Of a stretch of 64,000 nucleotides of DNA, positions 14,963 through 25,288 are shown piece after piece. The stretch comes from an uncultured Ardenticatenia bacterium (GTDB lineage Bacteria > Chloroflexota > Anaerolineae > 4572-78 > NAK82). The stretch lies in the NCBI GenBank assembly GCA_937127125.1, contig CAKZLO010000015.1:1-64000 (forward strand). The letters run 5' to 3'. How positions within the stretch are numbered: the first letter of the stretch is position 1; every line of letters starts with the position of its first letter. The notes under the pieces are model-generated. The model made no database searches. It saw nothing but the letters and a program-made list of their open reading frames with translations, and was not told the DNA's origin. The position numbers and the translations under genes are program-made.

Positions 14963-15412
14963 CTACAGCCAGCGCCTCGTCCTCCTCTTGTACTCCTGCC
15001 ACGTTTGACCGAATCGTTCTGCGAGCATATGTTCCTCTATCTCGATGAAGTGTCTGTCCATCAGGATAGGGAAGATCACGATGATCGCCCAAGGCGTCAG
15101 GGACCCAATCAGAATCGCTACGCCAGCGAGGATGAGCATAAAGCCGAGGTACATTGGATGGCGACTTACTCGGTACACACCGTTGGTTACTAGGGTGCGT
15201 GACTCCTCGAAAGGCTTGACAGTGGTGCCAGCTTTGCGAAGGGCGTTATCCGCAGCGAGATTTAGGGCCAATCCAATGCCCAATGGGAGGATGCCCAGAA
15301 CATTCCATGGCATAGGGATAAGTACCAGCCCAGGCACTAGAAAGTGCAGCAACAACATTGCCAAAATGGCTATGAGCAGGTAAGTGATGGGCGTTATCCT
15401 TTTGTCTGGCAT
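14963..15412 (-). CDS. Isoprenylcysteine carboxyl methyltransferase-like membrane protein
   Basis: A 149-residue membrane protein of the ICMT/PEMT-like family. It shows four hydrophobic segments and the family core: GVYRVSRHPMYLGFMLILAG in the middle and ERFGQTWQEYKRRTRRWL at the end, which form the S-adenosylmethionine pocket. Bacterial members methylate small or lipid-like acceptors; the real substrate is unknown. It lies between the lipoprotein upstream and the MBL gene downstream on the same strand, with gaps of 24 and 1 bases, so all three may be one operon. Confidence 0.85.
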   Translation of the reverse strand: MPDKRITPITYLLIAILAMLLLHFLVPGLVLIPMPWNVLGILPLGIGLALNLAADNALRKAGTTVKPFEESRTLVTNGVYRVSRHPMYLGFMLILAGVAILIGSLTPWAIIVIFPILMDRHFIEIEEHMLAERFGQTWQEYKRRTRRWL

Positions 15413-15436
15413 ATGCTTCTCCTGAGCAGAGCGAGC

Positions 15437-17524
15437 TCAGTCATCCCACGAGAACTTTCGCTCGAAAGTGGGCATAGAGGCAACTGCTTCGATGGTCAAT
15501 TGTCGGTCGCCTGCTGTACTATCGAACCAGGCTGCCGGATCCACCGGGTCTGAGATCAGCCAAGGACAAAAGGCAAACAAGTAGTCCGGCAATGGCTTGC
15601 CATCAGAGAGGCGCCCGGTGCGAAACCAATTGAAGACTTCCAGATGGTAGTCTCGGTGCAGCGCTTCGGTAATCGCTGGGAAGCGATCATCCTGTTGCTC
15701 TCCAAGACGCCAGCCGCCCTCACCCGCAATCATCACTGGTATGAACCCCAGTTCCTCCTCAAACACACGCGCGAACTCGCGAAAGCCGAGCACACCGTGA
15801 ATGTCCTCAACGTAATGAGGGGGATGGTTTAGTCCGTGTAGATGGGGCACGAAAAACATGCGCTCGAAAATGTAGTGCATTTTGGCCGCTTTCATCTCGC
15901 GCAGCGTGGCACGCAACCAATCCGGGTTGATGAGTTGTAGTCCGACGTAGCCACCTGCTTCGTAGACCTGTTGCGCCGCTGGCAGCAAATTGTGCAGGTA
16001 GGTTTTCTGGCTCACCGCACACAGTCCGTCCCATTCTTGTTCCAATTCGGGCTCGTTGTACAGCTGCATGTACGGTGCGATCCCCCGACCTCGCAAGAAC
16101 CCCACGTCTTCAGCCCAGCTGACATAGGTCTGATAGGGACGCACGAACGGTCGCCAGACAACCGTGATACCTGCCGCCTGGAATATGGGCGCAGTTCGCA
16201 CCAACTGCTCGTGGTCAGCGTACTGCACCAGTGCCCAGCGCACTCCCAAGCTCACCATACGATTGACCTGACGTTGTGCCTCGATGGCGTCATATTGGTG
16301 CGTCTGTAAGAAGTGTATGCCGCGCCCATTGTCACCGCGCGGCCGCGGCCACGTCTGCAACCAACGCAGGTACGACGCACTGGGTGAGGGGAATGAATGC
16401 GGTGGGGGCAACACTTCCCGCGTGGGCTCAATAGGTACAAAGATAGCCTGACGTCGCACATCGGCGTCGATGGCGTGCCATACAGTTCCATCAAAGTGCA
16501 CTTTGCCGCGCCGCCCGACGAACCACGGTGTGTCGTTCTTGTCCAGCACAACAAACTTGTGGCGCTCGAGCAACACTGGGTTGTCTACATCGGTGTAGAC
16601 TGCTGCGGCATCGCATGTGACGATACGGGCGATGTGATCCTTCCCCGCAACCCATAGCGTGCCGTCAACTGAGCGTGCCAGCGACAGAACCGGTGTGTCA
16701 AAAGTGACCGGGTTGGGGTTTGGGAAGCAAAGAGATGTCGATCGATCACGATAGACATATACCCCGGCGGAAGTCGCAATCCATACAGGCCCATCCATTT
16801 CGGCCAGCAATGCATATACCACTGGTTGCCCCGGTAACGTCACGCGATCCAGCCATTGTCGGGCACTCACAGCATAGTGAAACAGCTCCCCCGATCTCGT
16901 GGCCACCCATACTTCATCGCGCATGGGAGCATAGGCTACCGCGTTGATACCCTGAAGTGCGTCGCGAATCGCAGGCGGAGCAGCAATCAGCTGAGGTTCG
17001 ACCGTCGCCTCTGCAAGGGGTATCATCACCAGACCCTCACCGGGACAGGCGCACCAAAGGTTCTCTCTTACGTCCTGCGTCATAGAAGTCACCGCATTTT
17101 TGCTGCAGGCTCGCATCGACCGCCAGCCGTTTTGTGCCAAGATCCAAAGCAACCTTGTGTCGGTCCCAGCAGCCAAGTAGGAACCAGCTGCGGCTAGGGA
17201 GCGAACTACTGACCCGTCCGGGATGCGATGTTGTTCGTAGGAAGTGTCCTGGACGTTCCAACGGGTGAGCAACCCGGATTCGTTCGCTGTCCATAAGGCG
17301 TCCTCCGTCCACAGTGCAGCAGTAGCCTCTGGATAATTGTGTTGTTCCTCAGCTGTTCTTGGCTTGTGCAACCCGGCCAGCGCCTGTTCGCCAGGTCGAC
17401 ACACCGTCGCGGTAGTAGCTGCATCAAGGTGTGTCATATTGGATGATATCGGGGATGGTCCGGTACAAGCCAGGAGGCTTTGTACCGCAGCGACAAACAA
17501 GGCCATCCCTGCAGCATAGCGCAT
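15437..17524 (-). CDS. Lipoprotein with propeller domain and glycosidase-like barrel
   Basis: A 695-residue protein from the ATG at 17524, whose first 22 residues are a lipoprotein signal with the lipobox SLLACTG. A longer in-frame start at 17698 would bury that signal. Residues from about 55 to 370 contain repeated blades such as AVAYAPMRDEVWVATRSGEL and SLARSVDGTLWVAGKDHI, as in two-component-regulator propellers. From about 390 the pattern changes to a TIM-barrel glycosidase-like domain (SLGVRWALVQYADHEQLV, QLYNEPELEQEWDG), with a Glu in the NEPE motif that fits an acid/base catalyst. The substrate is unknown; the protein is probably anchored at the outer face of the membrane. Confidence 0.7.
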   Translation of the reverse strand: MRYAAGMALFVAAVQSLLACTGPSPISSNMTHLDAATTATVCRPGEQALAGLHKPRTAEEQHNYPEATAALWTEDALWTANESGLLTRWNVQDTSYEQHRIPDGSVVRSLAAAGSYLAAGTDTRLLWILAQNGWRSMRACSKNAVTSMTQDVRENLWCACPGEGLVMIPLAEATVEPQLIAAPPAIRDALQGINAVAYAPMRDEVWVATRSGELFHYAVSARQWLDRVTLPGQPVVYALLAEMDGPVWIATSAGVYVYRDRSTSLCFPNPNPVTFDTPVLSLARSVDGTLWVAGKDHIARIVTCDAAAVYTDVDNPVLLERHKFVVLDKNDTPWFVGRRGKVHFDGTVWHAIDADVRRQAIFVPIEPTREVLPPPHSFPSPSASYLRWLQTWPRPRGDNGRGIHFLQTHQYDAIEAQRQVNRMVSLGVRWALVQYADHEQLVRTAPIFQAAGITVVWRPFVRPYQTYVSWAEDVGFLRGRGIAPYMQLYNEPELEQEWDGLCAVSQKTYLHNLLPAAQQVYEAGGYVGLQLINPDWLRATLREMKAAKMHYIFERMFFVPHLHGLNHPPHYVEDIHGVLGFREFARVFEEELGFIPVMIAGEGGWRLGEQQDDRFPAITEALHRDYHLEVFNWFRTGRLSDGKPLPDYLFAFCPWLISDPVDPAAWFDSTAGDRQLTIEAVASMPTFERKFSWDD

Positions 17525-17858
17525 CACACATATGCATTGGGGCGACCGCGTAAGCCAGCCAGACAGTGACAGCTTCAGGCTGATCGATGCGCCTCCCTTC
17601 CCTACCAGGTCCGCTTGGGCCAACCATAGGGCAATTGGGCAGAACAGCAATGACGCAAGGAATCGGTAGCGCACAAAGCCTGTTTGACTGACCAGCAAAT
17701 CTTCTACCTCAGTGCGAACGCCGGGCAGCCCTGTCGATCTTCAGGTCGATGACCTATCCTACAGCTGCTTGACGATGGCTTCCCCTAGCGCCTCGGCCGT
17801 GATGCTGGATGGGTCATCTGTTCTGCCCAATGCCCGCCACCCGACGTTTGCTGAGCTC
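17525..17858. other. Gap holding a possible coding remnant
   Basis: Between the peroxiredoxin stop and the lipoprotein start. In the +1 frame the minus strand stays open just past the peroxiredoxin stop for about 33 codons and ends ALGEAIVKQL-stop near 17761. It may be a former C-terminal extension or the tail of another gene. The rest shows nothing I can support. Confidence 0.3.
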
Positions 17859-18563
17859 TTAGGGCTTCCAGACTTCCCAGACCCTGCCCACCAAATCCGG
17901 ACCGGGTTTGAGTGTCACCTGTCCGGGCTGCCAGCCTGAGGGTGTCACTTCGCCGGTAGCTCGCACGTGCTGGAAAGCCTTAATCTGCCGGATCAGCTCG
18001 TCGGGGTTCCGACCTACCTCAGGGGTCAGCACCTCCATTGCCCGGATAACGAAGTCGGGATCGATGATGAAACGACCTCGGATATCCACACCTGCGGCTT
18101 CGTCATACACTCCGTATACCATGCCAATCTTGCCACCAGGATCGGATAGCATGGGGAATGGCACTCCTCCGCTCACCATTTTGGATAATTCTTGTTCCTG
18201 CCAGATCTTATGCACAAAACGGCTGTCGGTGCTTACGGCCAGCACTTCGACACCCAATTGCTTGAATTCTCCATACAGGGCGGCGACCGCCGCCAATTCG
18301 GTCGGTCAGACAAAGGTGAAGTCGCCTGGATAGAAACACAAGACAATCCACTTGCCTTTGTAATCTGAGAGTTTGACCGGCTGAAACCCTACACCCTGAA
18401 TGAAGGCGTTCGCTTCGAAGTCAATCGCTTCTTGTCCAACGCGTGCGATCATTTTGCTAACCTCCTGTGCTAGTGGAGCCCCTGCTCCGGGAGTACTGGA
18501 TGGGGCAGCGGGCACGATCGGCCCGCGTGCAGGTTTGACACAGCCATCTTTAAGCTCTGCCAT
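17859..18563 (-). CDS. prxU: Selenocysteine-containing peroxiredoxin (UGA at catalytic position)
   Basis: A 234-codon AhpC/TSA-family peroxiredoxin that reads through one in-frame TGA at 18306-18308 (codon 86). The flanks are GDFTFV before and [14 protein letters not shown] after, so the TGA stands exactly where the family has the peroxidatic Cys of FVCPTE. The frame is intact on both sides, and the downstream part keeps the conserved blocks [35 protein letters not shown] and [15 protein letters not shown]-like hairpin follows. Such PrxU enzymes are known from anaerobes. No resolving Cys is present: GEVTPS replaces the usual GEVCP, and the only cysteines are at 8 and 75. Two starts are possible, 18563 (GGGAGGAGG upstream) and 18452 (AGGAGG with 8-base spacing, 197 residues, the normal length). 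It lies 99 bases after the MinD pair. Confidence 0.85.
18279..18308 (-). promoter_or_regulatory. UGA codon with bacterial SECIS-like hairpin
   Basis: On the minus strand the UGA (18308-18306) is followed, with 17 bases between it and the loop, by GGCGGC (18294-18289), loop GGUC (18288-18285) and GCCGCC (18284-18279). The known bacterial SECIS rule is an apical loop about 16-37 bases after UGA with a G among its first two bases, and both hold. GAATT/AATTC outside the hairpin may add a lower stem. Confidence 0.7.
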
Positions 18564-18595
18564 AGAGACCTCCTCCCATTTTTTGCAGAATTATT

Positions 18596-18621
18596 GAATA
18601 CCTCACGGATGGAACACCTCA
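18596..18621 (-). promoter_or_regulatory. Direct repeats upstream of the selenoperoxiredoxin
   Basis: On the minus strand TGAGGTGTTC (18621-18612) and TGAGGTATTC (18605-18596) are repeated with a 16-base period, 33 bases before the first start codon. They could be a regulator site. No convincing -10/-35 pair was seen with them. Confidence 0.3.
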
Positions 18622-18662
18622 GCGATTCGGATGTATCAGGGCCTATGCGATAATCCGTTACG

Positions 18663-19589
18663 TCACTCAAGGTTTCCCAGTCGCTGCAAGAAGGCGTCCC
18701 AAACTGTGCACATGGCCCGAGCTGCCGGGCCACCAACCGCAGTCACTGGCCGTCCACTGCTCATAGCGTGGGTCACTGCCACATCGAAAGGAATTATCCC
18801 TAGTAAGGGGATCTTTTTTTCGTGGCAGAAGCGCTCGATCTGCTGAGTTCCCTGTGGACAGATGTCCGCTTTGTTGATGACAGCAGCAACGGGGATGCCG
18901 AAGTGGTGTGCCACGCCCCAGGCGCGTTCAAAGTCGTGCAGACCGGCTACGCTCGGCTCGGTGACGATAAGCACCATGTCGGCGCCTGCCGCTGCACTGA
19001 TGGCTGGGCAGCCGATGCCGGGCGGCCCATCCACCAGCACCAGCGGGTAAGAGTTATCCAGCGCCAGGAAGCGTGCCATTTGTTTTACCAGAGTGACCAG
19101 CTTACCCGAGTTCTCCGCTCCGGGTCGCAGGGCGGCATGGAAAAGCGGTCCGTAGGGTGTCACTGAACGAAACCATTGTCCCACCAGCTGTGGCTGCATA
19201 TGGATTGCTTGCTGGGGACACGCGTAGAGACATGCCGCGCATCCCTCACAGGCAAACTCATCCACTCGTGCATACGCCGGCCCAGGCGCTGAGGGGATTG
19301 AGATGGCATCAAAACGACACACTGTCTCGCACACCCCGCAACCTGAGCATAATTCCGGGTCGACTACTGCCAGCTCACCGGCAACGAAGTCATGCGCCTC
19401 CAGCTGTCTTGGCTGCAACACGAGCTCGAGATTCGAGGCATCCACGTCAGCATCCACGAGCACGAGACGAATCTGACTAGCTGAAGGGGCATCGGGGACA
19501 TGATTAGCAGCTGCCAGGTGTGCAAACGCGGCGACCAAGCTGGTCTTGCCTGTACCGCCCTTGCCGCTAAGAACCACCACCTGTTTCAC
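18663..19589 (-). CDS. MinD/Mrp-type ATPase with inserted 2x[4Fe-4S] ferredoxin domain
   Basis: A 308-residue P-loop ATPase. The deviant Walker A is SGKGGTGKTSL at residues 8-18, and two CxxCxxCxxxC clusters follow in CSGCGVCETVCRFDAI and CEGCAACLYACPQQAI at about 80-130. The switch motif VDGPPGIGCPAI replaces the canonical DxP. Such pairs carry or insert Fe-S or mixed-metal clusters; in Desulfovibrio the ORP operon has the same pair. Its start overlaps the stop of the paralogue upstream by four bases. The protein is cytoplasmic and probably dimerises with that paralogue. Confidence 0.9.
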   Translation of the reverse strand: MKQVVVLSGKGGTGKTSLVAAFAHLAAANHVPDAPSASQIRLVLVDADVDASNLELVLQPRQLEAHDFVAGELAVVDPELCSGCGVCETVCRFDAISIPSAPGPAYARVDEFACEGCAACLYACPQQAIHMQPQLVGQWFRSVTPYGPLFHAALRPGAENSGKLVTLVKQMARFLALDNSYPLVLVDGPPGIGCPAISAAAGADMVLIVTEPSVAGLHDFERAWGVAHHFGIPVAAVINKADICPQGTQQIERFCHEKKIPLLGIIPFDVAVTHAMSSGRPVTAVGGPAARAMCTVWDAFLQRLGNLE

Positions 19590-20476
19590 GTGCGGATGCC
19601 CCTTGCCTCGAGTAGCTGGATGTGTTCAAAAAGATTACGCAATGCCATCCCATATGCCGGCCGCACTGCGGTCAGTGGCTGTCCAGCTGCCAGCGCTTGG
19701 CCGATGTCACGTTCCAAGGGGATGCGCATCAGAACGGGAAGGTTCGCCTCGACGCAGAAACGCTCCAATGCTCCGTCGTTTGCCATGTCGCGATTGATAA
19801 TGACCCCAGCTGGCAGGTTCATTTCGTGAACCAGCTCCACAATTAGGCGCAAGTCGTGTAAGCCAAATGGAGTAGGCTCGCTCACCAACAATGCAAAATC
19901 GGCGCCGCGCAGTGTTTCGACCACAGGACAGGAAGTGCCGGGTGGTGCGTCTCGGATTTCTACCGCTTCTGGGCTTAGTGCATGGGGAAACAGTTCCGTC
20001 CTGACTGCCCATTTCTTGAGCTGCCGGATGATCGGCGACGCGCTCAGTTCACCGATTTCGAGTACGCCACGAGCGAAGGTAATACCTGTCTTGGTGCTAC
20101 CTGCCTCGAGCACTCCCAATGGCCTTCCATATTCGCTGAGCGCTGCCTCCGGGCAATTCGCTACACAGCTGCCGCAACCGTGGCAGAGTTCCGGGAAGAC
20201 CAACACCTTGCCGCTCATTACCGCGATGGCGTGATACCTGCAGATCTCTGCGCAATGACCACAACCGGTGCATCGCGTTTGGTTGACGACCGGGACCGGT
20301 CGATCGACTTGTTGGCGCCAGATGAGCTCTGGTCTCAGTATCAAATGCGCATTTGGCGCCTCCACATCGCAGTCGAGAAACAAGACCGGCCTATCCTCCA
20401 ATGCCAGTGCCAGTCCAGTGGCGATGGTGGTCTTGCCAGTACCACCCTTACCGCTGGCAACAGCGATGCGCATCAA
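19586..20476 (-). CDS. MinD/Mrp-type ATPase with inserted ferredoxin domain (paralogue)
   Basis: A 296-residue relative of the next gene downstream, with Walker A SGKGGTGKTTI, the two cluster motifs CTGCGHCAEICRYHAI and CHGCGSCVANCPEAAL, and RDAPPGTSCPVVETL in place of the switch region. The two copies differ enough to be separate partners in a heterodimer rather than a fresh duplication. It overlaps both neighbours by four bases, so three genes are translationally coupled from 20859 to 18663. A role in delivering clusters to the NifX-like proteins is inferred from the ORP precedent. Confidence 0.9.
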   Translation of the reverse strand: MMRIAVASGKGGTGKTTIATGLALALEDRPVLFLDCDVEAPNAHLILRPELIWRQQVDRPVPVVNQTRCTGCGHCAEICRYHAIAVMSGKVLVFPELCHGCGSCVANCPEAALSEYGRPLGVLEAGSTKTGITFARGVLEIGELSASPIIRQLKKWAVRTELFPHALSPEAVEIRDAPPGTSCPVVETLRGADFALLVSEPTPFGLHDLRLIVELVHEMNLPAGVIINRDMANDGALERFCVEANLPVLMRIPLERDIGQALAAGQPLTAVRPAYGMALRNLFEHIQLLEARGIRT

Positions 20477-20859
20477 CGGGTTCCTGCGGTCAATCCGTGG
20501 TGTCCGCGTGAAGTTGGTCCAGCCACAGACTGCAGGGTTCCTGCTCGATACTGGTGCAAAAGCTGCCGCACGGAAGGTGGCTCACCACGCGGCGCCACGT
20601 ACATCGCCAGGCCTGCCGCGCTGAGGGCTCGATAAGCGTTCGGACCAAAGTCACCGCTGATAACCACAGTGGCACCTTGGTTGGCCACGAACTGAGCCGC
20701 CTGCACCCCGGCGCCGCCGGGCGCCTCTACCGCCGGATTGGCGTGGAACTGCCATGTTTCTGTCTCTTCGTCGAAGATGATAAAGTAAGCTGCCCGCCCG
20801 AAGCGCGGGTCAAACGGTGCATCCAAATCGGTGCCGCTGCTCGTGATGGCTATTCGCAT
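20473..20859 (-). CDS. NifX/NifB-C-like (dinitrogenase iron-molybdenum cofactor family) protein
   Basis: A 128-residue protein of the DiNase FeMo-co family, which includes NifX, the C-terminus of NifB and the orange protein ORP. The family pattern is seen in DPRFGRAAYFIIFDE and GATVVISGDFGPNAYRALSAAG. It likely binds a metal-sulfur cluster for transfer. The tail after residue 105 is poorly conserved. The ATG overlaps the MinD paralogue downstream. No nitrogenase genes are in the window, so nitrogen fixation is not implied. Confidence 0.87.
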   Translation of the reverse strand: MRIAITSSGTDLDAPFDPRFGRAAYFIIFDEETETWQFHANPAVEAPGGAGVQAAQFVANQGATVVISGDFGPNAYRALSAAGLAMYVAPRGEPPSVRQLLHQYRAGTLQSVAGPTSRGHHGLTAGTR

Positions 20860-20898
20860 GAATCACCTCGATTGTTGGCGCAATGTTGTCTGGAGTTC

Positions 20899-21105
20899 CT
20901 ATTCCCGTATCATCTGCGTCCCGCATTTGGGGCACGTCAGCTCATAGCACGGCTGTCCGGTCTGGTGCTCGACTCGGTGGCCACATTTGGGGCAGATACA
21001 ATATCCGCCTGGGCCGGCTGCTTTCGGTCCACCGCGACGTCCTGGGCCGCGTCCGCCACCCTGACCACCGCCTCTTCCTGATCCTTGACCTCTTCCGAAT
21101 CTCAT
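20899..21105 (-). CDS. Small zinc-ribbon-like protein
   Basis: A 68-residue protein. The N-terminal half is Gly/Arg-rich and the C-terminal half carries CICPKCG and CYELTCPKCG, giving a four-cysteine zinc-ribbon or rubredoxin-like site. Small proteins of this type recur beside NifX-like genes in anaerobes. AGGAGG lies close before the ATG, and the gene sits 39 bases from the NifX-like gene on the same strand. It may be a scaffold or metal donor, but no function is known to me. Confidence 0.7.
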   Translation of the reverse strand: MRFGRGQGSGRGGGQGGGRGPGRRGGPKAAGPGGYCICPKCGHRVEHQTGQPCYELTCPKCGTQMIRE

Positions 21106-21147
21106 GTTATTAGCCTCCTGAAATGGGAAAAAATTATCGTCGCTGAG

Positions 21148-21525
21148 TCAGTCGTGACATCGGCCGTGAGCCCCTTCCTCCGGGCAGGGCATCGCGCCGC
21201 GCAACTCACCCGTAAGATATCGTTGTAAAGTCTCGCGTACGTTGCCAGCAGCGCCAGTGATTGCTTCGATACCATACCCCTGAAGGGCCTGTGTTGCGCG
21301 TCGTCCCATACCACCCGATAGCATCACCTGCACGCCCTGTTCTGCTAGAAACCTTCCAACCTGACCACAACCGTGGCTGCCGCAGAATGGATTGACGATC
21401 CCGGTGACCGAGTGGACTTGATTGTTGTCAGTGTCTATCAGTATGAAATAGGCTGCATAGCCGAAGTGTGAGCTGACCTTGCTATCCAGTCCGTTGTTCT
21501 CCTCTGCTGTAATGGCGATCCGCAT
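21148..21525 (-). CDS. NifX/ORP-like protein (second copy)
   Basis: A 125-residue DiNase FeMo-co-family protein starting MRIAITAEENNGLD at 21525, where TTGGAGGT supports the start. It keeps SSHFGYAAYFILID and GVQVMLSGGMGRRATQAL. It has several Cys and His residues (NPFCGSHGCGQV, AMPCPEEGAHGRCHD), more than the other copy, so it is the better candidate to hold a cluster itself. It lies upstream of the zinc-ribbon gene on the same strand. Confidence 0.87.
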   Translation of the reverse strand: MRIAITAEENNGLDSKVSSHFGYAAYFILIDTDNNQVHSVTGIVNPFCGSHGCGQVGRFLAEQGVQVMLSGGMGRRATQALQGYGIEAITGAAGNVRETLQRYLTGELRGAMPCPEEGAHGRCHD

Positions 21526-21623
21526 GAAATACTGGTACCTCCAAATTGAGTTTTTGTTGGGATGCTGGGTGAGAGATGAGAGAGCAGTAACAATTGCCAC
21601 TGCTCTCTCACCACGGTGGCAGG

Positions 21624-21968
21624 CTACTTCTGTTCCAGCTCTGCGATGCGTTCATTAGCGCGCTCCAGAGCCGCCTGCAGGTTCTCGACGTGCGCTTTGA
21701 GCCATTCCAGCTCCTGCTCGCGCGTCACGGATAGCGCGTAGGGTGGCACCGGCCACGCTCCACCGAAGCGCACCCAGCCAGGCAGACCAGTGGCGTAGAA
21801 CCAGTGCCGCCAACCACGGCCGCCGAAGCCATAGCCGTAGCCTACTCGCGCACCGAAGCCTGGAATGGGGTTCATATAGCCCGGGACCGGGTAACCGGCG
21901 CAATAACCGGCACGCCGACCTGTCATAGGCCCTGCACCCCAAGGACCTGTGCGATCTCCGCGTGGCAT
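21624..21968 (-). CDS. DUF5320-type protein with C-terminal coiled coil
   Basis: A 114-residue protein beginning MPRGDRTGPWGAGPMTGR, the typical opening of DUF5320 proteins. The middle is Gly/Tyr/Trp-rich (GARVGYGYGFGGRGW), and the last 35 residues (LEWLKAHVENLQAALERANERIAEL) form a coiled coil. Proteins with this opening sit beside NifX-like and MinD-like genes in many anaerobes. Function is unknown; the coiled coil suggests an assembly role. Confidence 0.78.
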   Translation of the reverse strand: MPRGDRTGPWGAGPMTGRRAGYCAGYPVPGYMNPIPGFGARVGYGYGFGGRGWRHWFYATGLPGWVRFGGAWPVPPYALSVTREQELEWLKAHVENLQAALERANERIAELEQK

Positions 21969-22106
21969 CTTATCTCACCTCATTTCTCTCAGGATCCACA
22001 AAGTACCTTTTTCATTACCGCTTCCGCCAGAATGTCCTGATTGGTTCAGACATCTGACATAGCGATGATTTAACACTCGACGCTATACAACACCAGCTCG
22101 TTACAG

Positions 22107-22586
22107 TCACGAACGAGGACCTCTCTGCCGGTAACGGTGGCGCCACATGCGGCCGACAATTGTCGTGCCGAGCCCTTGAGTGCGCGACAACGGACTGCTC
22201 GTCACACGACGGTCCAGCACCTGCAGCGCAATATCGGCCAGATGGGGTGCCAGTGCTGTGCCGGCCCAGCGCAGAAATGAAGCCATCAGCGGCAAGAATG
22301 ACGTCCTTTGGTGCGTGACCAGCGGTCCCGACGGCATCGTCGCCGCCGGGACAGAAGGCTGCGCTGTGGGCCGCGTCATCAGCATTTGCGACCCCGGCTC
22401 CACCCTTTCTACCAGCAGGATGGCGCCCTGTGTACAGGCATCTGCACAGGCGCCGCAATTGTCGCACCGTTCCACCGTCAATGTAGCGACCCCGCCTTGC
22501 AGCGAGATGGCCCCCTTTGGACATACGTTCACGCAAGTGCCACAACCAGTGCACAATTGTTCGTCAATCTGGATCATCTGATCCAC
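22107..22586 (-). CDS. Ferredoxin-like 2x[4Fe-4S] protein with C-terminal extension
   Basis: A 159-residue protein. Residues 1-60 are a bacterial 2[4Fe-4S] ferredoxin with CTGCGTCVNVCPKGAI and CDNCGACADACTQGAI. The remaining 100 residues are Pro/Ser-rich, then contain one weak hydrophobic stretch, and match nothing I know. It lies 3 bases after the PadR gene and starts the metal-cluster genes. It may pass electrons to the MinD-type ATPases. Confidence 0.82.
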   Translation of the reverse strand: MDQMIQIDEQLCTGCGTCVNVCPKGAISLQGGVATLTVERCDNCGACADACTQGAILLVERVEPGSQMLMTRPTAQPSVPAATMPSGPLVTHQRTSFLPLMASFLRWAGTALAPHLADIALQVLDRRVTSSPLSRTQGLGTTIVGRMWRHRYRQRGPRS

Positions 22587-22589
22587 TCC

Positions 22590-22964
22590 CTATACCTTGT
22601 CCAGACGAGGCGTCGCATCGTATGCTGCCAGCAAGGCGTCGATCTCGCGGCGTGTCTGGCGCAGATCGGCGATCCACTGAGCCAGATACTCCTCCCCAGC
22701 CGGCGTGACGCGATACACGCGTCGCTGTGGCCCGAGACTCTCATCCGACCATTCTGAGGTCACCAGACCAAGAGATTCCATCTCACGCAGCGCCCGATAC
22801 ACCAGGCTCGGATCCAGAAACTCTGGATCGAAGCCAAACTCGGCCAGGTCATCCAGCAGACTGTAGCCATGCGCCTGATCACGCCGCAACAACACTAGCA
22901 GGCAAGGCTGCAGAAAGCTGATGATGCGCCGTCGCCGTCCAAAACCTCTTCCACCCCACGGCAT
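22590..22964 (-). CDS. PadR-family transcriptional regulator
   Basis: A 124-residue PadR-type winged-helix protein. The family core is visible at residues 20-95: AHGYSLLDDLAEFGFDPE, PSLVYRALREMESLGLV and YRVTPAGEEYLAQW, and a short C-terminal helix gives dimerisation. The Arg-rich start (GFGRRRRII) is unusual but fits. It heads the cluster. A palindromic operator sits inside its own promoter, so it should repress itself and the cluster until a ligand or redox signal releases it. Confidence 0.9.
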   Translation of the reverse strand: MPWGGRGFGRRRRIISFLQPCLLVLLRRDQAHGYSLLDDLAEFGFDPEFLDPSLVYRALREMESLGLVTSEWSDESLGPQRRVYRVTPAGEEYLAQWIADLRQTRREIDALLAAYDATPRLDKV

Positions 22965-22989
22965 ACCACTACCTTCCTCTTATACTTTC

Positions 22990-23024
22990 GTCTATAGTAT
23001 ATCACACTATAGACTATTTGTCAA
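22990..23024 (-). promoter_or_regulatory. Promoter of the PadR cluster with perfect palindromic operator
   Basis: Minus strand: TTGACA (23024-23019), 17 bases, TATACT (23001-22996). A perfect inverted repeat GTCTATAGT / ACTATAGAC (22990-22998 and 23006-23014, 7-base spacer) covers the -10 box and most of the spacer. Binding there must block the polymerase, so autorepression by the PadR protein is likely. Confidence 0.8.
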
Positions 23025-23043
23025 TAGGTAAGAGGAGCAAAAA

Positions 23044-23072
23044 TTGACAAAATCATGTAAACGCTTTATCAT
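23044..23072 (+). promoter_or_regulatory. Promoter for sugar isomerase/kinase operon with LacI-like half-site
   Basis: TTGACA at 23044-23049, a 17-base spacer and TATCAT at 23067-23072. The spacer contains TGTAAACGCTTTATC, which has the AAnCGnTT core of LacI-family operators. It faces the genes from 23166 onward. Confidence 0.6.
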
Positions 23073-23165
23073 CGTTTGCTGAACAAATGTACACGCCTGA
23101 ACATTGGACAGCATCACATATGGTGCTACATCCCCCAGCTGAGTTTATGACACACAGGTGACCCC

Positions 23166-23774
23166 ATGACCCCTGAAGAAATCTTGCACACAGCGCGTTC
23201 TGTTATCCAGCAAGAGAGTCAGGCAGTTGCCGGCTTGGTGGAACAGATCGACACTAATTTTGTTCGGGCCGTTGAGATGCTCTTCGCCTGCGAGGGGCAT
23301 GTACTGGTGGCCGGGTCGGGTACTTCGCATGCAGTGGGTGCACGTCTAGCACATCTCTTGTCGTGTTGCGGTACACCAGCACTCTTCATCCATCCCGGCG
23401 ACAGTCAGCACGGACTCTCCGGAGCGGTCACGGCTCGGGATGTCCTGATCGCTCTCTCCAAAGGCGGTGAGACGGCTGAGGTGAATTTCCTGGTGTCTAT
23501 CGCCAGACGACGTGGGGCAAAGGTTATCGCGATTACCGAACGTCCGGATTCCACACTAGGCCAGCAGAGTGACGTGGTGTTGTGCGTACGCTCGCCTGCT
23601 GAGGCCGATCCGTATGGGATGATCGCTACCGGCAGCTCATTGGTGAACTGCGCCTTCGGCGATGCATTGTGTGTGACCCTGCTGCACCTGCGTAGGTATA
23701 CGCGCGACCAGTTTGGCGAGACGCATCCGGGTGGCGCAGTGGGCAAACGCATTGCTGCAGAAAAGGGAGTGTGA
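23166..23774 (+). CDS. SIS-domain sugar phosphate isomerase
   Basis: A 202-residue SIS-domain protein. [16 protein letters not shown] is the sugar-phosphate loop, and [15 protein letters not shown] and [25 protein letters not shown] are the other family blocks. It is of the KdsD/GutQ/HPI (6-phospho-3-hexuloisomerase) group and lacks CBS domains. GTGACCCC just upstream gives only a weak ribosome site. It overlaps the kinase start by four bases and may act on the same sugar phosphate. Confidence 0.85.
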
Positions 23775-25288
23775 TGCCAATGATGCACTTGATCGGGTTG
23801 GACATTGGTACGTCAGGCTGTCGCGCCATCCTCTTTGCCGAGGATGGCACGCCACTTGCTGGTGCCAGCCGCGAATACAACGTGGATATTCCACAGCCGA
23901 TGTGGGCAGAGCAGGATGCCGAGGCCGTCTGGCGCTACGCCATAGATGCATTGCGCGAGGCAATTGCTACCTCCCACGTTGACAGGGTCGCCGCCATTGG
24001 GCTCTCGGTGCAAGGTGAAGCGGTTATCCCAGTGGATGAGCAAGGTAACGCATTGCGTCCGGCCATCCTGGGCATGGATACTCGCACCGGGGAGCAAAAC
24101 CGTTGGTTAGCGGATACCTTTGGCGCCGAGTACCTTTTTGAGCGCACCGGCATGCCCATTCACACCATCAATACGTTGCCGAAGTTGCTATGGCTGAAGC
24201 AATATGAGCCCACGATATGGTCACGGGCACATCGCTTCCTGCTTTATGAGGATTTTTTCATCCATAAGATGTGCGGCCGGGCAGTGATCAGCCGCTGTCT
24301 GGCGTCGCGTACCCAGCTGTATGACCTGCTCGATGATCGCTGGTCGCCTCATATCCTCAAGACGATTGGACTGGAGGAGCAGCGTCTTGCAACCGTGCAA
24401 TCCTCTGGTGTGGCAGTCGGCGAGATGCATCGCGCGCTCGCAGCCCAGCTGGGCCTGATCCAACCACCGCTGATAGTGACTGGTGGCCACGATCAAGCAT
24501 GTGGCGCGTTGGGAGCCGGTCTGACACAACCTGGGTTGGCTATGGTTTCCACTGGCACCGCTGAAGTGGTCGAGATAGCTATGCAAGTTCCCCAGCTGAA
24601 CGAGACATTGCGCCAAGGCAACATCTCTGTGTACGCACACGTGGTGCCCGGTCTCTACTTGGCAATGGTCCTCAATCACAGTGGTGGATTAGTGCTGCGC
24701 TGGTACCGTGACACTTTTTGTGAGGCGGATGTGCAACGGGCGCAGACGAGCGGGCGCAGCGCTTATGACTTGATCCTGGCGGATGCCTCCCCGGAGCCAT
24801 CGAGGCTGCTATTTCTGCCGCATCTCTCTGGGAGTGGTACGCCATGGTTAGACATTGCTTCCAAGGGAGCTGTGCTGGGCCTAACGTTCGGTACAACACG
24901 ACGCGACGTCGCTAAGGCAATCTTAGAGGGTCTCACGTTCGAGTTGCGCATCAACATGGATTTGCTCAGACAGGGTGGTGTCCTTATCAACGAGTTGCGT
25001 GCTATTGGCGGCGGTGCGCGTTCGCCGCTATGGCTTCAGCTCAAAGCGGATATCCTGGGTGTTCCAGTGGTAGTGCCAGCGGTGACGGAAGCGGCATGTC
25101 TGGGAGCGGCATTGTTAGCTGGCATAGGCGCAGGTGTGTATTCCGATGCCGGACAAGCTGTGGCGCAGGTGCTGCACTTCATGCATACGTATCAACCGCA
25201 TTCTGAGCGTGCTGCACGCTACGAGCAGTTGTATGAGCTCTATCGTGCCGTTTATCCGGCCGTAGCGCCCATCACCCATCGGTTGTGA
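23771..25288 (+). CDS. FGGY-family carbohydrate kinase
   Basis: A 505-residue sugar kinase of the gluconokinase/xylulokinase group. Phosphate-binding [14 protein letters not shown] starts the chain, [12 protein letters not shown] is in the substrate lobe, [15 protein letters not shown] contains the catalytic Asp region, and [23 protein letters not shown] is the adenosine motif. It phosphorylates a pentose, a hexulose or a sugar acid. The overlap with the isomerase gene and the shared promoter suggest a two-step catabolic unit. Confidence 0.9.

Follow-up and report, generated by a model that had tools for sequence, protein, structure and literature searches.

In the window, as the whole 64,000-nucleotide stretch analysed here is called, a gene for a PadR-family regulator heads a run of genes on the minus strand (Table 1). 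The PadR protein matches the winged-helix model PF03551 at 56.7 bits (cut-off 27). Its nearest solved relative by sequence is TM0937 (2esh, 7.9e-22), and the nearest named relative found is the Ardenticatenia MAG Nak82 (L032), with a PadR that is 95% identical. A model for PhaQ-type repressors was also tried and rejected (67 bits, cut-off 139). In the last gene of the run, an in-frame TGA at 18308–18306 falls exactly at the peroxidatic position of PrxU (GDFTFV-UGA-PTEL). All five of the PrxU copies among 80 related loci and the window have this TGA (WIN, L084, L073, L096 and L093), and the genome has selenocysteine machinery – SelB scores over its cut-off, and tRNA-Sec scores 71.9 bits against a cut-off of 47.

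Table 1. Genes and regulatory features at the PadR locus, with positions in the window.
Feature	Position	Strand	Remarks
PadR-family regulator, 124 aa	22590–22964	-	PF03551, 2.4e-15; ATG at 22964
Ferredoxin-type protein, two 4Fe-4S motifs	22107–22586	-	PF00037 and related; starts 3 bases past the PadR end
DUF5320 protein	21624–21968	-	PF17253, 2.1e-27
NifX/orange-protein-type protein	21148–21600	-	PF02579, 7e-21; start codon not fixed
Small Gly/Arg-rich protein, zinc-ribbon-like CxxC tail	20899–21105	-	weak PF13240, below cut-off
Second NifX/orange-protein-type protein	20473–20859	-	PF02579, 1.1e-18
Mrp/NBP35-like P-loop ATPase, ferredoxin insert	19586–20476	-	PF01656, PF10609, Fer4
Second Mrp/NBP35-like P-loop ATPase	18663–19589	-	PF10609, PF01656, Fer4
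Selenocysteine peroxiredoxin PrxU, last gene of run	17859–18563	-	NF040737, 375.5 bits with TGA as U, cut-off 270
-35 box TTGACA	23019–23024	-	promoter scan
-10 box TATACT, upstream TG	22996–23001	-	promoter scan
Candidate operator O1, CTAT-TGACAAATAGTCT-ATAG	23007–23027	-	overlaps -35 box; register B; exact, -26 relative to -10
Candidate operator O2, CTAT-AGTGTGATATACT-ATAG	22992–23012	-	palindrome core; overlaps spacer and -10; exact, -11
Perfect palindrome GTCTATAGT-N7-ACTATAGAC	22990–23014	-	extends O2 by two bases on either side
Half-site 1, CTATTG	23022–23027	-	left half of O1; 15-bp ladder
Half-site 2, CTATAG	23007–23012	-	shared by O1 (right half) and O2 (left half)
Half-site 3, CTATAG	22992–22997	-	right half of O2; starts inside -10

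Two neighbouring gene groups were seen outside this run. Genes for a SIS-domain protein and a sugar kinase diverge from the PadR gene and have their own promoter, TTGACA-N17-TATCAT (23044–23072, plus strand), within which lies TGTAAACGCTTTATCA, which resembles an operator of the LacI family. Between 25876 and 27917 on the minus strand are genes whose translations resemble magnesium-chelatase-type AAA and VWA-domain subunits.

The minus-strand promoter before the PadR gene is TTGACA-N17-TATACT, with 11 of 12 consensus bases. Its 17-base spacer occupies 23018–23002, and a TG one base upstream of the -10 box gives it an extended -10. An earlier note on this DNA had described a perfect 9-base inverted repeat with a 7-base spacer lying over the -10 box and spacer of a near-consensus promoter, and this description holds. 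The sequence at 22990–23014, GTCTATAGT-ATATCAC-ACTATAGAC, has 9-base arms with zero mismatches around a 7-base spacer, and it overlaps 13 of the 17 bases of the promoter spacer and the entire -10 box. It is the sole match to GTCTATAGT-N7-ACTATAGAC in the window at up to three mismatches, and 100 shuffles of the window produced none. A second operator copy that the earlier note missed, CTATTGACAAATAGTCTATAG at 23027–23007, lies over the -35 box and overlaps the palindrome. The two copies share the half-site CTATAG at 23012–23007, so that three half-sites follow one another at 15-base steps.

The unit common to both copies, CTAT-N13-ATAG, was first suggested by the sequences upstream of PadR at 33 loci, which include duplicates. 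A single-sequence search (E ≤ 0.001, general PadR paralogues included) detected PadR homologues in 43 of 61 relatives, and an 18-row alignment (E ≤ 1e-15) detected them in 115 of 396 genomes of the class and 43 of 251 genomes of the phylum. A first set of 80 loci and the window contained 83 PadR genes, each scoring at least 100 bits; a second set contained 40 further, mostly less similar PadR genes, for a total of 123 from the class and the phylum. The 120 loci sampled were taken among the best matches listed. Sites were counted in the 120 bases upstream of each PadR gene.

The exact unit was present in 37 of the 83 upstream regions of the first set, where 100 shuffles gave a mean of 0.28 and a maximum of 2, and allowing one mismatch raised the count to 63, against 5.2 on average and at most 11 in the shuffles. 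When the spacer between CTAT and ATAG was varied from 0 to 30 bases, no other length gave more than 11 exact sites, the number seen at a spacer of 28. Without the 17 genes of the discovery set, 30 of 66 regions had an exact site and 49 had one with at most one mismatch, though this subset is no strict hold-out, as its upstream regions were inspected ahead of counting. The 40 later loci, one of which (L195, without the site) had already been in the discovery set, gave 19 exact sites and 28 with at most one mismatch. In total, 56 of the 123 upstream regions have the exact unit, in 21 of 32 families, and 91 have it with at most one mismatch. The other 32 regions lack it even at one mismatch; possible causes of absent sites include the lack of a recognisable promoter nearby, as for 7 of the 83 PadR genes. 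Family f30 (L086, L092 and L195) lacks the CTAT site and has, around the -35 box, an inverted repeat rich in GC, GCCGGCCGGC-N10-GCCGGCCGGC, which is possibly a switched operator.

In the window, then, an operator-like site that overlaps the regulator's own promoter is also conserved in relatives. The earlier note had proposed a PadR operator filling the core promoter of its own cluster. The part of this that stands is an operator-like element over the promoter of PadR and its cluster, built from a unit that is common in relatives; the palindrome itself is not the primary unit, and the widespread copy of CTAT-N13-ATAG is the one over the -35 box. Absence of the repeat from relatives had been named as grounds for giving up the idea, and what was found is the reverse, as many relatives carry the underlying unit at an equivalent place.

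The doubled array of the window is confined to its own clade and a few other genomes. It is also found in G002, which is in one genus with the window genome (G000), and in G322 and G236; the four group together on the PadR tree with an SH-aLRT support of 94. All four members of this clade have CTATAG as half-sites 2 and 3, and half-site 1 begins with CTAT in two of them and with GTAT and ATAT in the other two. G371 has a doubled array with a letter-perfect GTCTATAGT-N7-ACTATAGAC ahead of a PadR gene; the genes after it, judged from their translations, resemble those for DUF5320, NifX-type and ATPase proteins. The array is nearly present in G105, and G003 has it on a contig that ends 21 bases (7 codons) into a gene starting MPRGRGR. 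Among the 396 class genomes, five have the full palindrome with at most one mismatch (G000, G002, G003, G371 and G237), and the reversed control gave none. Four of the five copies are at PadR-type promoters, counting G003, whose contig stops after the promoter and 7 codons; the copy in G237 lies between cation-ATPase-like and phosphatase-like genes, with no PadR promoter.

The palindrome could be a chance by-product of TATACT and ATAG words that happen to adjoin, with only O1 of any consequence. O2 does share letters with the -10 box, and it scores 12.6 bits against 27.5 for O1 on a family matrix that was itself built from these sites; O2 could be a weak site, as its score is so far below that of O1, part of whose pattern is dictated by the -35 box itself. 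However, the palindrome did not arise in any of the window shuffles, and exact O2 is found in five loci (G000, G002, G322, G236 and G371). An accidental palindrome is unlikely, and O2 is better regarded as a second, possibly weaker, candidate site.

The position of the unit relative to the promoter is not the same in all PadR lineages. Offsets from the -10 box were measured in the 76 of 83 PadR genes that had a recognised promoter, and sites with at most one mismatch stood at fixed places: 33 at -26, 18 at +6, 8 at -41 and 6 at -11. The commonest register, B, is at -26, over the -35 box (CTATTGACAAATTGCACATAG). Register A, at +6, begins at the end of the -10 box (TATAATCTATATGCATTATGCATATAG) and is seen in other PadR lineages. 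Labels were assigned as B for 28 of the 83 genes, B with O2 for 5, A for 25 and none for 25; for all 123 rows the numbers were 36, 8, 29 and 50. The PadR tree is poorly resolved. On it, registers A and B change 2 times among 58 labelled rows and 3 times among 73, unlabelled rows being omitted, and all four labels including 'none' require 21 changes, where shuffled labels need 42 on average. Two loci have more than one PadR gene: L099 has two divergent paralogues about 0.2 kb apart, one in register A and the other in register B, and in L121 some 8 kb separates the two PadR genes.

The 15-base step recurs beyond the window clade. Half-site pairs 15 bp apart are found in 62 of the 123 loci, from 22 families (shuffle maximum 4), pairs 30 bp apart in 16 loci (maximum 5), and pairs at 45 and at 60 in 6 loci each (maximum 4 each); these counts are not probabilities, because orthologous promoters are not independent. 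The shuffle maximum is also surpassed at distances of 7, 8, 9, 10, 14, 19, 22, 25, 29, 36 and 37, with an excess smaller than that at 15 and mostly smaller than that at 30, and those at 7 and 22 probably stem from the -10 box beside register A. In 9 of the 29 other register-B promoters there is an extra CTAT at -41, and in the window clade the third half-site is at +4. The longest ladder seen is in L142, with four CTAT half-sites at exact 15-base steps (-71, -56, -41 and -26) and ATAG at the next step. With their centres separated by 15 bp, O1 and O2 differ by about 154 degrees of rotation round the helix, so that dimers bound there could occupy nearly opposite faces, though the two sites share a half-site. 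A tentative interpretation, which we consider possible but rather doubtful as a whole, is that PadR of this lineage recognises CTATAG half-sites arranged as a ladder with a 15-bp step, in which adjacent 21-bp operators have one half-site in common, with dimers stacked on nearly opposite faces across the core promoter, and that the ladder slid along the promoter in evolution (-41/-26/-11, -26/-11/+4, or a single site after -10) while its internal spacing stayed fixed.

The registers also bear on the direction of control. MerR-type regulators act at the -35 region by distorting the promoter spacer, and register B lies over the -35 box, where a regulator of that sort could sit; PadR might then activate, or activate in one register and repress in another, and the extra CTAT at -41 would suit such a role. 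Against this, an activator should be unneeded at a promoter that is near-consensus and has an extended -10, and register A, after the -10 box, and O2, over it, are both blocking positions. Furthermore, LmrR is reported to repress its own gene and cdPadR1 to bind its own promoter in a way that fits autoregulation (PMC4534193, PMC5428041, PMC5050560). We consider activation quite unlikely and simple repression the better reading of these positions.

The unit is nearly exclusive to PadR promoters. In 553,072 bp of sequence (the 80 loci and positions 15001–24000 of the window), 40 of the 41 exact sites lie upstream of a PadR gene at a distance of at most 120 bp, and there are 6 weak matches to the family matrix away from PadR. 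In the genome of the window (3,726,144 bases in 85 contigs, 95% complete) the palindrome is unique at up to three mismatches. The search for GTCTATAGT-N7-ACTATAGAC that had been proposed as a way to define a regulon thus returned no second site. A further scan of this genome likewise gave no other site, its one-mismatch matches being fewer than those of the reversed control. With no further site in the genome, control looks local to the cluster.

Metal-cluster genes often follow PadR. Of the 70 PadR genes whose downstream sequence extends for at least 3 kb, 47 are followed within 7.5 kb by a match to a NifX-type, DUF5320 or ATPase protein, and 39 by two or more kinds of cluster gene. Of three proteins scanned in such loci, all downstream of PadR, that in L073 is an Mrp-type Fe-S carrier, and those in L068 and L081 are DUF364/DUF4213 'putative heavy-metal chelation' proteins.

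Conservation alone does not name the binder, and the repeat might be the operator of a different regulator that PadR merely neighbours. That is very unlikely given the near confinement of exact sites to the upstream regions of PadR genes, the presence of the site also where the cluster is not recognised downstream, and the clustering of register on the PadR tree. It is highly improbable that the palindrome is a terminator or attenuator hairpin acting at the RNA level: a scan does call it terminator-like on the plus strand, but the plus-strand ORFs just before it are antisense to the PadR and ferredoxin genes, only 3 of the 9 pairs of the stem are G-C, O2 and register B are outside any transcript they would control because they lie within or upstream of the -10 box, and placement of the unit before or after -10 depending on lineage fits DNA recognition.

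The reading we prefer, with a probability of roughly 0.87, is that the element serves as the operator through which the PadR encoded immediately downstream represses its own gene. A dimer of this protein would recognise CTAT-N13-ATAG, and in the window it would have two overlapping sites, made of three half-sites that reach from the -35 box a little beyond the -10 box. PadR bound at either site would hide the promoter from RNA polymerase. From the position of the sites, and by analogy with the reported behaviour of LmrR and cdPadR1, such blocking should occur, because both registers and O2 coincide with parts of the promoter that RNA polymerase has to contact. PadR and the co-directional genes for the ferredoxin, DUF5320 protein, two NifX/orange-protein-type proteins and two Fe-S ATPases, and perhaps PrxU, presumably on one transcript, would be kept at a low level until some signal, perhaps a releasing ligand, freed the cluster from PadR. 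Points against this reading are the 32 upstream regions without the unit, the 50 genes without a register label, the variable half-site 1 of the window clade, the low matrix score of O2 and the copy of the palindrome in G237 away from any PadR promoter.

The earlier note had suggested a sensor for the metal cluster or the redox state, and residue conservation does not support this. Cysteine is absent from 19 of the 83 PadR homologues. Cys21, the only cysteine of the window PadR, is kept in all four members of the window clade, but its column has Cys in 32 of 83 homologues and Ala in another 32, and the best Cys column (Arg10 in the window) has Cys in 33. As no cysteine is conserved family-wide, a metal or redox sensor stays a guess from the neighbouring genes. 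His32 is found in 80 of the 83 homologues and a C-terminal His (Thr118 in the window) in 67; a tail with at least two His in the last 8 residues is found in 18 and is absent from the window PadR. Given Cys21, His32 and the C-terminal His, some PadR lineages may have a sensor role. An LmrR-like drug pocket was also considered. In LmrR, Trp96 is the residue that stacks on ligands; its column appears to be Leu101 in the window PadR, an invariant Leu across the homologues, and a nearly invariant Trp97 is about one turn before it.

These results provide a precise, testable operator for a large group of PadR proteins in the window's class, often before little-studied metal-cluster genes, and with it a handle for finding the signal to which these gene clusters respond. 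The ladder with its 15-bp step, together with the change of register between lineages, offers a clean case of a repressor and promoter staying functional while the operator moves. In the open-licence literature, no earlier description was found of a CTAT-N13-ATAG operator, of a ladder with shared half-sites or of the two registers, and nothing relevant by title was found there that paired PadR with an orange protein or with a Chloroflexi binding motif.

Three known systems are similar in part. In the orp operons of Desulfovibrio vulgaris, an Fe-S P-loop ATPase and a NifX-type domain are in one gene group, DVU2106 represses its own sigma-70 promoter via an overlapping site, and the operons are divergent and under a sigma-54 activator with IHF (PMC3897727, PMC6345978). 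The window likewise has grouped ATPase and NifX-type genes and a regulator predicted to repress itself. The PadR promoter, the one promoter of the cluster covered by the analysis of sigma type, is of the sigma-70 type. Unlike orp, PadR heads genes of a single direction, and the ATPase and NifX-type domains are on separate proteins. The best score against the MrpORP model among the 6 cluster proteins scanned was 65.8 bits, against a cut-off of 450. From its proteins, the cluster appears to resemble orange-protein systems in parts, and by the MrpORP model it is not one.

LmrR of Lactococcus lactis is a PadR-family repressor of its own gene that controls a drug exporter through the operator ATGT-N8/N10-ACAT; several dimers can bind its own promoter, and half-site spacing alters their stoichiometry (PMC4534193, PMC5428041). 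The window PadR is of the same family, and is a candidate autoregulator with a promoter that could take more than one dimer. Its proposed operator differs, being CTAT-N13-ATAG and placed before metal-cluster genes, and reading of the window promoter region found no canonical ATGT-N8-ACAT as given in PMC5428041.

The third system is cdPadR1 from Clostridioides difficile, a PadR-s2 protein that binds inverted repeats in its own promoter (PMC5050560). That promoter has two repeats, one of them over the predicted -35/-10, and autoregulation was proposed; the motif, TACT-N11-12-AGTA, is in two separate places, and a related motif is in about 200 other places in the genome (PMC5050560). The window shares with it two repeats in the regulator's own promoter that overlap the -35/-10 region. 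It differs in having CTAT-N13-ATAG, in copies that share a half-site, and in having no further site elsewhere in its genome; the cdPadR1-type motif was not seen in the window promoter region, where the only similar arrangement was TACT-N9-AGTA. The proposed autorepression circuit is of a known kind, with a layout that is partly new and unusually well supported.
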